IMG/VR virus record: IMGVR_UViG_3300046168_000082
Coordinates: 19,537 to 83,536 of that record
DNA length: 64,000 nt
DNA from: a virus
Strand: one strand, 5' to 3'
The first letter of the stretch is position 1, and each line of letters opens with the position of its first letter. Shown one piece after another: positions 6,418 through 36,767 of this stretch. The position numbers and the translations under genes are program-made. The notes beneath the pieces are model-generated. The model was not told the origin of the DNA. It worked only from the letters and a program-made list of their open reading frames with translations, and did no database searches.

Positions 6418-6492
6418 CGCATGGTAGCCAAGTGGTAAGGCAGGAGTCTGCAAAACTCCCATTCGTCAGTTCGATTCTGATCCATGCGTCCA
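6418..6492 (+). tRNA. tRNA-Cys (anticodon GCA)
   Basis: A full cloverleaf can be drawn. Acceptor CGCATGG pairs with CCATGCG, D stem is GCC/GGC, anticodon stem GGAGT/ACTCC with loop CTGCAAA (anticodon GCA), and T stem GTCAG/CTGAT with loop TTCGATT. A discriminator T is followed by an encoded CCA end. It sits 17 nt after the lipoprotein gene and is the only tRNA seen in the window. Confidence 0.93.
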
Positions 6493-14741: not shown

Positions 14742-15001
14742 TGGATGCGACAATTAAACCTCTTAGTGATAAAGTTAGTATGTTTGCATCTAACGATGAA
14801 TTATACGAACAATTAACCAACAAAGAATTAATGTTAATTAAAATGGTTAAGGCGGAAGAATTCGTTGATGATTTATATAGAGCACACGATTCTGAAGCAA
14901 ATAAAAAACTATTTCCCCCCGAAAAAAGTTGGTTTAAAATAAAAGAATTATTGAGAGAATTACGCGAATTAAATAAAAAACAAATAACCCCTAAAATATA
15001 A
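14741..15001 (+). CDS. Small hypothetical protein (86 aa)
   Basis: Translationally coupled to the previous gene by TAATG. Helical and charged (KELMLIKMVKAEEFVDDLY; IKELLRELRELNKKQ). Ends 10 nt before the promoter of the putative non-coding RNA. Confidence 0.6.
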   Translation: MDATIKPLSDKVSMFASNDELYEQLTNKELMLIKMVKAEEFVDDLYRAHDSEANKKLFPPEKSWFKIKELLRELRELNKKQITPKI

Positions 15002-15010
15002 AAATAATAG

Positions 15011-15039
15011 TTGACAAATAACAAATAATATAGTAATAT
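15011..15039 (+). promoter_or_regulatory. Promoter of the putative non-coding RNA
   Basis: TTGACA 15011-15016, 17-nt spacer, TAATAT 15034-15039. Transcription should begin near 15046. No start codon or Shine-Dalgarno follows at a sensible distance. Confidence 0.7.
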
Positions 15040-15045
15040 ATAATA

Positions 15046-15457
15046 TATAAAATTGAGAAGGATAAACTCAAATAAATAAAATAATCCAAAATTTTTGTTC
15101 TTTTACATTTTAAATTTTGAGCATAGATCTCGCAAGCATTAAGTTGCTAAAAGCCAATTCTTGTAAGTCTCAATTCACTTTGGAAGGGCTTATAATCCTT
15201 CCTGTGGGTGACCGAATAAGCCTGTCGTGAGCGGGCTAAGGTATGCAGATCCCTGTGGTAGGGTTGGTAGAGTCCAATCGAATGAGCCAAATGACAACAC
15301 CAAGTCTAGTCTGTAGTTGGAAGTAGGTACACCATGAACTGATGTTCACGCCGAAAACTTGAGGGTATACAGTAGCCCCTCCCCACACAATTTTCTCTGA
15401 TATCCTCGACCCTCCTTGGTTCTCTCTTGCCCGCCACCTGAACCAAGGAGGGTTTTT
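15046..15457 (+). ncRNA. Putative structured non-coding RNA (~410 nt)
   Basis: A transcription unit with a consensus promoter upstream and a strong intrinsic terminator at its end, but no credible reading frame. From about 15120 the base composition rises to roughly half G+C in a very A+T-rich genome, the usual mark of structured RNA. Several local hairpins can be drawn: GGAAGG/CCTTCC near 15182-15202, GCCTG/CGGGC near 15221-15237, CCCT/AGGG near 15253-15265, CCAA-CTA/TAG-TTGG near 15301-15321, TGAAC/GTTCA near 15335-15348, and GAGGG/CCCTC near 15361-15381. It lacks recognisable tmRNA, RNase P, 6S or group I intron signatures. Confidence 0.6.
15410..15457 (+). terminator. Intrinsic terminator of the putative RNA gene
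   Basis: Perfect 13-bp stem CCCTCCTTGGTTC (15410-15422) with GAACCAAGGAGGG (15440-15452), 17-nt loop, T5 run. The next promoter's -35 box begins 3 nt later. Confidence 0.85.
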
Positions 15458-15459
15458 GT

Positions 15460-15488
15460 TTGACAGCTGCTTTTTTATTTATTATAGT
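15460..15488 (+). promoter_or_regulatory. Leaderless sigma70-type promoter
   Basis: TTGACA 15460-15465, 17-nt spacer, TATAGT 15483-15488, ATG at 15495 (7 nt downstream). Confidence 0.75.
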
Positions 15489-15494
15489 ATACTC

Positions 15495-15749
15495 ATGAAA
15501 ACATTAAAAGATATCTTATCAAACTACGGGTACATGAACAGCAATCAGCTTAAAGAAATAGCTGAGCACTTCCCTGCATTCAGGGTTGTCATTAAATGGG
15601 GCGGACTTCCCCGCGAGCGTCTTCCAGCCTGGGAGGCAATATCCAGGATTAAATCAGTGGAGACCCAAAACATCGATTACTGTAGAGAGGTGTTTATCTC
15701 AGGTACTGAATACAACGCACTCAAACAAGCTTTCAACATCGCCGACTAA
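15495..15749 (+). CDS. Hypothetical protein (84 aa)
   Basis: Start ATG 15495 is set by the leaderless promoter; an upstream in-frame TTG would place the promoter within the gene. Sequence MKTLKDILSNYGYMNSNQL with WGGLPRERLPAWEAISR in the middle. G+C is higher than in the flanking genes, suggesting acquisition. Family not recognised. Confidence 0.6.
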   Translation: MKTLKDILSNYGYMNSNQLKEIAEHFPAFRVVIKWGGLPRERLPAWEAISRIKSVETQNIDYCREVFISGTEYNALKQAFNIAD

Positions 15750-15983: not shown

Positions 15984-16011
15984 CCCCCACCGTAATTGGT
16001 GGGGGTTTTTT
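15984..16011 (+). terminator. Intrinsic terminator
   Basis: CCCCCACC (15984-15991), 6-nt loop, GGTGGGGG (15998-16005), then TTTTTT. It ends the 15495 unit after a ~140-bp A/T-rich trailer and lies just before the first long palindrome. Confidence 0.85.
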
Positions 16012-16031
16012 ATTGGTCAACTTTACGCTTT

Positions 16032-19460: not shown

Positions 19461-20454
19461 ATGACAACTATAGCACAATTACAAACCAAAAAAAGAAAAA
19501 GCAAGAAAACTACTTCTTTGCAAGTTAACCAAAGCAAAGTTACCGCAGAAAAACAATTCAACAAAATTTTTAAACAAAAAGAGTTTAAGCATTTTATCTA
19601 CGATTTTGGTGTCAAAGATTTACCTTTGCTCGATCATATGCTATCCGATCAAGTAAACAATCCCTCAAGAAATCGTGGCAAAGCAGATGACAACATCAAG
19701 AGATTATTTCGTTGTCTTCAAGCGGGTCAATGGTTTTTCGAGTCAATCGACATTCTCATCAATGAAAGAGGCGAGCTTCTTAATGGTCAACATACATTGG
19801 AGGCTATTAACCAACACCTTCTTGACGCAAAAAACACCAAGAGATGCTGTAGTGAAAGTTGGCTTCAAGTTAGGAGTTGATTCAAGAGCAATGCCTTATC
19901 TCGACACTCAAAAGAAAAGAAGTCCACATCAAAATCTTAGAATTAAACAAGGTGGTGTGGATATTAAACTTAATCGAGCACAAGAGTATATTGTATTAAC
20001 TGAAGGTAAAAATTTAGTACATGGTTCTCCTTTCGCTAAAGGTAAGATCGTAAACTTTTTTGAATACGATAGCGTTATTAAAAAGCATTCTAGTATGTTA
20101 AACAGAGTGTTTGGTAATCGAGTATTCTGCTCAGACTTTCCTCATATTGGCATCAGTTACCCTTTGTTCTGTGTTGCCAAAGAAGATGAAGAGCTTGCAA
20201 ACACTATTCTTGATGAGATTTGCGACATTCATAACGAAAGCAATCGAGGAGTCTCAAAATGGTATCCTTATGAGAAACAAATTCCTGTAGAGCACGAATT
20301 GATAGAAAAGTTTAGACAAGAAAAACATCTCAAAATGTCAGGAATGACAAGCAAGACGGGCAGAGATTGTTATCGTGCCGAAGAGTTTTATCCATTAGCA
20401 GTTAATTGGTTAGTTGAGAAGTGCGATCTTGATCGCAACATTTTTCCAAAATGA
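19461..20454 (+). CDS. ParB-like phage protein (NGQH motif), frame broken near 19834
   Basis: The N-terminal part (AAGGAG before ATG 19461) ends with ERGELLNGQHTLEAINQHL, the 'DGQHRL' block of a large uncharacterised family of ParB-like phage/actinobacterial proteins. That frame stops at 19880, but the +1 frame carries the expected continuation (VVKVGFKLGVDSRAMPYLDT, then KKRSPHQNL) to 20454. One surplus base, probably in the A6 run at 19829-19834, explains it; the intact protein would be about 330 aa. Role likely DNA-related regulation, unproven. Confidence 0.65.
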
Positions 20455-35696: not shown

Positions 35697-36767
35697 ATGT
35701 ATATGAAACATACAATCAATGGAACAGTAAATAGTAAAAAAATTATTGTAACTGGAGTCACTGGGCAAGATGGCAGCCATATGGTAGATTATCTTTTAAA
35801 AAATGTTGACTGTAAAATTTTTGGATCATTGAGAAGGATAAGTGTGCCTAATTATAAGCACATTAAACATTTAAAAAATGAATCAAGATTTGAATCTATA
35901 AAATTAGATTTAACTGATTCGTACAGTATTCAAAATGCAATCACCAACATTCAACCAGATTATTTTATAAATTTTGGAGCACAGTCATTTGTGCAATCAA
36001 GCTGGGATTTTCCAGAGCAAACTTTTCAAACAGATGCTACTGCTATGATACATATATTAGAAGCAATTAGAAAGTTCGCTCCGAAGTGTCATTTTTATAA
36101 CGCAGGGTCTTCTGAAGAATTTGGTGATGTAGTTTATTCTCCACAAGACGAAAAGCATCCTTTAAGACCTCAGTCTCCGTATGGAGCAGCTAAAGCCGCA
36201 GCTAGACACCTCGTGAGAGTATATAAAGAATCTTATGACTTGTACGCTATTCAAGGTTGGTTGTTTAATCACGAAGGAACTAGAAGAGGGTATGAATTTG
36301 TTACCAGAAAAATCAGTAATAGCATTGCAAAAATCAAAAAATGCATAGAAAAAAATGAAGATTTTAAACCTTTAAAATTAGGTAATCTTGACGCTAAAAG
36401 AGATTGGACAGATGCTGAAGATTTCATGGATGGCGTGTGGAAAATGTTAAACCAAGAAACACTAGATCCTAAAAATTATGTTCTAGCGAGTGGAGAAATG
36501 TATACGATTAGAGAATTCCTACAAGAAACTTTAAAACATGCAGGAATAAAATTTGTGGTATCTGGAGAAAAAGAAGATGAAAAATATCTAACTGAAGATG
36601 GAAAAACCTTAGTGATTATAGATCCGTCTCACTACAGACATGCAGAGGTTAAGGAATTGCTTGGAGATTGCTCAAGAGCTAAAAAAGAATTGGGCTGGAA
36701 ACCTAAAAACAGTTTTATTCAATTAGTGCATAAAATGTACGATAATGATTACGCAGAAAGTTCTTAA
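35697..36767 (+). CDS. gmd: GDP-mannose 4,6-dehydratase (356 aa)
   Basis: Extended short-chain dehydrogenase converting GDP-mannose to GDP-4-keto-6-deoxymannose. Nucleotide-binding motif TGVTGQDGSHMVDYL at ~18-32, QSFVQSSWDFPEQTFQTDAT, catalytic Ser/Glu region AGSSEEFGD at ~135-143, and SPYGAAKAAA with Tyr~162 and Lys~166; GWLFNHEGTRRG and RDWTDAEDF are Gmd hallmarks. Two ATGs (35697, 35703) are possible. Metabolic insertion in the morphogenesis module with its own late promoter; the product would feed sugar modification of virion or host surface. Confidence 0.92.
   Translation: MYMKHTINGTVNSKKIIVTGVTGQDGSHMVDYLLKNVDCKIFGSLRRISVPNYKHIKHLKNESRFESIKLDLTDSYSIQNAITNIQPDYFINFGAQSFVQSSWDFPEQTFQTDATAMIHILEAIRKFAPKCHFYNAGSSEEFGDVVYSPQDEKHPLRPQSPYGAAKAAARHLVRVYKESYDLYAIQGWLFNHEGTRRGYEFVTRKISNSIAKIKKCIEKNEDFKPLKLGNLDAKRDWTDAEDFMDGVWKMLNQETLDPKNYVLASGEMYTIREFLQETLKHAGIKFVVSGEKEDEKYLTEDGKTLVIIDPSHYRHAEVKELLGDCSRAKKELGWKPKNSFIQLVHKMYDNDYAESS

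Follow-up and report, generated by a model that had tools for sequence, protein, structure and literature searches.

The RNA encoded on the plus strand at positions 15011-15461 of the window belongs to a known RNA family, manA, and has an architecture that is unreported in the literature found. The window, the whole stretch of viral DNA that was analysed, is 64,000 nt long and corresponds to positions 19,537 to 83,536 of the 83.5-kb virus record IMGVR_UViG_3300046168_000082, in which a single copy of manA RNA is present. The unit was shown, at the level of sequence signals, to comprise a predicted promoter of its own, an untranslated hairpin-boxA leader, an exchangeable module, a compact core and a terminator, and to be followed by a separately promoted gene. 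We consider it probable that the unit is a free-standing gene for a non-coding manA-family RNA, that this RNA acts by itself and that it does not switch the next gene. Weinberg et al. (PMC2864571) introduced manA RNA in 2010; they found it in cyanophages, in two gamma-proteobacteria and in marine metagenomes, within what may be 5' UTRs, and proposed it as a candidate riboswitch. It is an orphan family filed by Rfam as type Cis-reg, and no experimental function has been reported for it in the literature found. Relative to the published description, the free-standing architecture, the boxA leader and the modular 5' inserts are new. Since 2010 the RNA has been regarded as a riboswitch candidate and has stayed an orphan; the existence of a stand-alone clade argues against the accepted label.

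Identity and fold of the manA core

The Rfam model RF01745 (manA RNA) matches positions 15182-15391 on the plus strand with 83.8 bits against a gathering cut-off of 55.2 (E 7e-20), and the match extends over the full model (positions 1-192); the core itself is taken as 15182-15387. The original prediction, a gene for a structured RNA that is bracketed by a promoter and a terminator of its own, had assigned this region to no known class, which proved wrong, and had counted a match to a known family against itself; the gene organisation that it proposed is nonetheless borne out by the promoter, terminator and covariation evidence given below. Family membership is supported by the score over the full model and by compensatory changes that agree with the consensus secondary structure. 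Unlike in the published description, the core does not stand in a potential 5' UTR, being followed by a terminator and then by a leaderless promoter before the next gene, but such placement is a functional label and not a criterion of homology. As had been predicted, the 3' part of the unit is rich in G+C, rising from 14-24% at 15000-15149 to 46-53% at 15150-15449.

The absence of a credible open frame was likewise correctly foreseen, as none longer than 50 aa lies within 15011-15461. A conserved peptide was rejected, the alignment of relatives containing gaps of 1-2 nt that would break any frame. ARAGORN and Rfam found no tRNA or tmRNA at the unit, the sole tRNA in the window being a tRNA-Cys at 6418, and a BLASTN search of 50,697 phage records with the unit as query gave no match. 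An Rfam match to RybB (E 0.024, below threshold) reflects the terminator only. A hammerhead-like CUGAUG...CGAAA arrangement in the core was also rejected, these bases forming a GAAC/GTTC hairpin instead.

Relatives were collected with a conserved-core pattern, which gave 40 viral contigs; from these 32 non-identical units were catalogued and the 30 with complete cores were aligned (alignment A1). A second pattern gave at least 120 cyanophage-type contigs, and 97 distinct members with flanks, among the matches listed, were analysed. Five loci (L002-L006) with only partial manA resemblance were left out. The cyanophage members that were scanned score 181-197 bits against 76-88 bits for the clade of the window, which places the window in a divergent manA subclade. 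A search for the host by the exact 19-nt boxA string in 398 + 148 genomes and a search for manA in 395 genomes of one order gave no match, but neither did the controls. The phage terminase, RIIA and capsid-like proteins gave distant matches or none.

In A1 (n=30) 99.2% of the cells of the proposed fold are paired, and both-sides changes occur in 134 cells and 19 pairs. When the partner strand was slid by 1-3 columns as a control, at most 13 compensated cells were obtained, against 134 for the proposed fold. The covariation check on collected homologues that had been called for gave a positive outcome, the tree-aware test being our own simplified R-scape-like null and not R-scape itself. Pairs above this null lie in P2 and the 3' hairpin, and also in a pseudoknot that joins the P2 loop (15226-15228) to 15348-15350. 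The pseudoknot consists of three pairs, all with both-sides changes and 100% paired, and its outer pair exceeds the tree-aware null; Weinberg et al. put a question mark on a manA pseudoknot (PMC2864571). Judged from the alignment, the compensatory changes support the fold, including this pairing of the P2 loop with the 3' part. The closing helix, TGTGGG at 15203-15208 pairing with CCCACA at 15382-15387, is invariant in the window clade, and in cyanophage members it is formed by other partners (GGGAG/CTCCC). The cyanophage set shows significant covarying pairs separately from the window clade.

Promoter, boxA leader and inserted modules

A sigma70-type promoter is predicted at 15011-15039 on the plus strand, with TTGACA at 15011-15016, a 17-nt spacer and TAATAT at 15034-15039, in agreement with the promoter originally proposed, and would place the transcription start near 15046. 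Its position is kept in 29 of the 30 relatives, in which TTGAC-N16-19-TAnnnT occurs within 90 nt before boxA; 0.19 such cases would be expected in shuffles. A 5' hairpin, TTGAG-AAGGATAAA-CTCAA, follows at 15053-15071 (plus strand) and is boxB-like by position. Its stem is kept in almost all boxA-bearing relatives and shows a both-sides change, CTGAG/CTCAG, in L178. The GGAT of the loop can pair with ATCC at 15084-15087, and loop and downstream strand co-vary in L015, L172 and L178 (GAGGC/GCCTC, AGAT/ATCT). These co-changes suggest that the hairpin may be able to form a pseudoknot with the downstream strand, although the pairing is absent in many other loci.

The boxA-like element TTGTTCTTTTACATTTTAA lies at 15095-15113 (plus strand). 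The motif TTGWTCTTTWA or a close variant of it is present in all 30 boxA-bearing relatives scored, as is TTGATCTTTAACATTTTAA or a near variant in all 30 leaders scored, and boxA holds a fixed position after the promoter and, in most loci, the hairpin, as in leaders of the rrn type. The clade consensus TGATCTTTAACA is identical at 11 of 12 positions to the boxA of E. coli rrnB (TGCTCTTTAACA), and the window's own boxA, TGTTCTTTTACA, differs from the latter at two of the 12. The order of promoter, hairpin and boxA is also that of the E. coli rrnB leader (P2 - boxB - boxA). Unlike the rrnB leader, however, the putative Nus-factor site here stands ahead of a phage RNA rather than rRNA, and the hairpin differs. 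It has been shown that boxA, with NusB/S10, shields rRNA synthesis from Rho and aids folding (PMC4807359, PMC6614801), and that boxA boosts the expression of CRISPR precursors (PMC7862264). In CRISPR arrays, as here, boxA stands ahead of a long untranslated RNA, and the Legionella Lens CRISPR boxA (GTTCTTTAAAA) resembles that of the window (GTTCTTTTACA), whereas the RNA concerned is a folded manA RNA and not a crRNA precursor. By analogy with these precedents in rRNA and CRISPR precursors, boxA here probably secures the finishing of an untranslated transcript. The unit would then be a case of a phage RNA placed behind a ribosomal-RNA-type boxA leader.

Between boxA and core the window carries a small structured RNA module, which we call alpha (15114-15175, plus strand). 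The same module is found in L012, L167 and L179 and also, outside manA units, in contigs L186 and L187; it gave no match in Rfam. About a dozen loci have no insert at this place and the others have one self-closed module or two, some of which recur in different combinations among loci. It is possible, if doubtful, that the unit represents a modular RNA-cassette platform, in which an rRNA-style leader and the manA core carry 0-2 small structured RNAs that marine phages exchange with one another, host antitermination factors being hijacked for their synthesis. That the modules differ, are recombined from locus to locus and are also found away from manA units might even suggest that the exchangeable module is the payload and the manA core mainly a scaffold or 3' stabiliser. 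This we hold to be very improbable, as the dozen or so loci without a module still keep the highly conserved core.

Terminator and downstream gene

An intrinsic terminator is predicted at 15408-15461 (plus strand). Its hairpin (15408-15454) has 15 paired positions and a predicted stability of -26.3 kcal/mol and is followed by a T tract; the perfect 13-bp stem of the original prediction is the inner part of this longer hairpin. A terminator lies within 200 nt after the core in 23 of 29 relatives, against 0.75 expected. The strict rule overlooks a terminator-like hairpin in L008, and a terminator comes after a further element in L175 and L184. In two loci, L007 and L153, a coding frame lies directly 3' of the core and there is no terminator, which counts against reading the RNA as a stand-alone gene.

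The next gene has a separate promoter, TTGACA-17-TATAGT at 15460-15488 (plus strand), which ends 6 nt before the ATG; the gene itself (15495-15749, plus strand; 84 aa) is not part of the RNA unit, and its product had no match in Pfam or PHROG. In 23 of 25 relatives a promoter ends 5-7 nt before the ATG of the next gene and there is no Shine-Dalgarno sequence. The next gene is therefore predicted to be leaderless, with the manA RNA lying outside its mRNA. At least nine genes of the window (at 1848, 2082, 2564, 5261, 6909, 8171, 15495, 16547 and 19051) have the arrangement TTGACA-16/18-(-10)-5/8 nt-ATG, and thus predicted leaderless mRNAs, where 0.1 would be expected in shuffles. A second strong terminator-like hairpin, CCCCCACC..GGTGGGGG with a T run, lies at 15985-16013, at the end of an A+T-rich stretch that follows the 84-aa gene and has no evident genes.

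These observations bear on the proposal that the core is a riboswitch or attenuator which, by sensing a ligand, would determine whether transcription continues past the terminator into the downstream gene. The Rfam type and the published proposal (PMC2864571) speak for it, as does the position of the terminator a few tens of nt 3' of the core. One downstream gene family is moreover common to 18 of 28 relatives, which could hint at a link and so also counts against a stand-alone RNA; the genes in the other 10 are unrelated. We nevertheless find control of this kind distinctly unlikely, given the leaderless promoter that the downstream gene has for itself in 23 of the 25. The terminator stems of different loci are, furthermore, unrelated in sequence. 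An attenuator pairing between core and terminator found no support: the score for each core with its own terminator was -14.63 against -14.79 +/- 0.41 for permuted terminators, so that there is no sign of a co-evolved attenuator. A stand-alone gene with a leaderless neighbour favours an RNA with an action of its own over a metabolite sensor.

Cyanophage manA and a possible mode of action

The window clade resembles the described manA RNA (RF01745) in sequence and fold over the 192-position model, in the closing helix and in its occurrence in marine phages, and differs from it as described (PMC2864571) in being free-standing with its own terminator and not in a 5' UTR. The manA RNAs of T4-like cyanophages (S-CREM1, PMC9964418; P-SSM2; P-HM2) belong to the same family and also have a sigma70-type promoter upstream, but they start at P1 with no hairpin-boxA leader and are mostly followed by an ORF or tRNA. 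Among the matches listed, 77 of the 97 cyanophage members have a promoter TTGAC 47-58 nt before the conserved GTGAC, a spacing which indicates that in cyanophages P1 is the first part of the RNA and no boxA leader precedes it. To our knowledge cyanobacteria lack Rho. The absence of boxA from cyanophages would fit Rho-less hosts, provided that the host of the window clade does have Rho.

Downstream of cyanophage manA, again among the matches listed, are 26 unrelated protein clusters, the largest of which resemble, by eye, a gp32-type single-strand-binding protein and transaldolase; tRNAs occur in 7 of 97 and terminators in 16 of 97. So wide a range of neighbours, which also stands against a riboswitch acting on the next gene, does not fit well with a riboswitch dedicated to one pathway. 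In 75 of the 97 listed members an ORF begins within 110 nt downstream, so a cis role is possible there. The RNA could, for example, be a portable 5'-end element acting in cis, which modifies RNA polymerase (like the HK022 put RNAs) or shields the 5' end of a phage transcript from decay whatever gene follows. This would explain use independent of the gene, the cyanophage members lying exactly at the promoter and ahead of unrelated genes and tRNAs. For the unit as a whole it seems to us unlikely, since in the window clade a leader of variable length, with hairpin and boxA at its start, precedes the core, and a strong terminator comes right after the core, then a gene with a promoter of its own, so that nothing is left in cis.

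Taken together, the free-standing unit and the varied cyanophage contexts make a metabolite riboswitch for one pathway unlikely and speak rather for a phage RNA with an action of its own. For such an RNA, host RNA polymerase would initiate at the predicted start and boxA would recruit host NusB/S10, with the result that, as with rRNA, synthesis and folding of the untranslated transcript would reach completion in spite of Rho. Transcription would end at 15455-15461 and the RNA might perhaps be trimmed to the compact core closed by the helix 15203-15208/15382-15387. We infer that it is most likely a stable compact RNA acting in trans, whose target during infection may be a component of the host or of the phage; the RNA would not switch the next gene.

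Several further elements were seen close to manA RNAs. A second conserved hairpin, GACCTAAGATGCAACT..AGTGGGGCAGATGGTC with a T run, lies just 3' of the cyanophage core in L043, L045, L046, L050, L054, L073, L078 and L125, and had no Rfam match in the loci scanned. A recurring unannotated element, GGTATTGTnGCGG..TTCGT..CTGGTnATTTCATnCGCC..TAAnnACATAAAAGC, also with no Rfam match in the loci scanned, lies upstream of the manA promoter in L011 and downstream of the core in L175 and L184, and a similar one is present in L157. In L050 an Rfam glutamine riboswitch (positions 312-360; 37.7 bits, cut-off 35) lies about 230 nt upstream of the manA RNA. Elsewhere in the window a nucleotide-sugar epimerase gene (35697-36767; PHROG 540, E 1e-66) is located between the portal and other head genes, and its product looks like GDP-mannose dehydratase.
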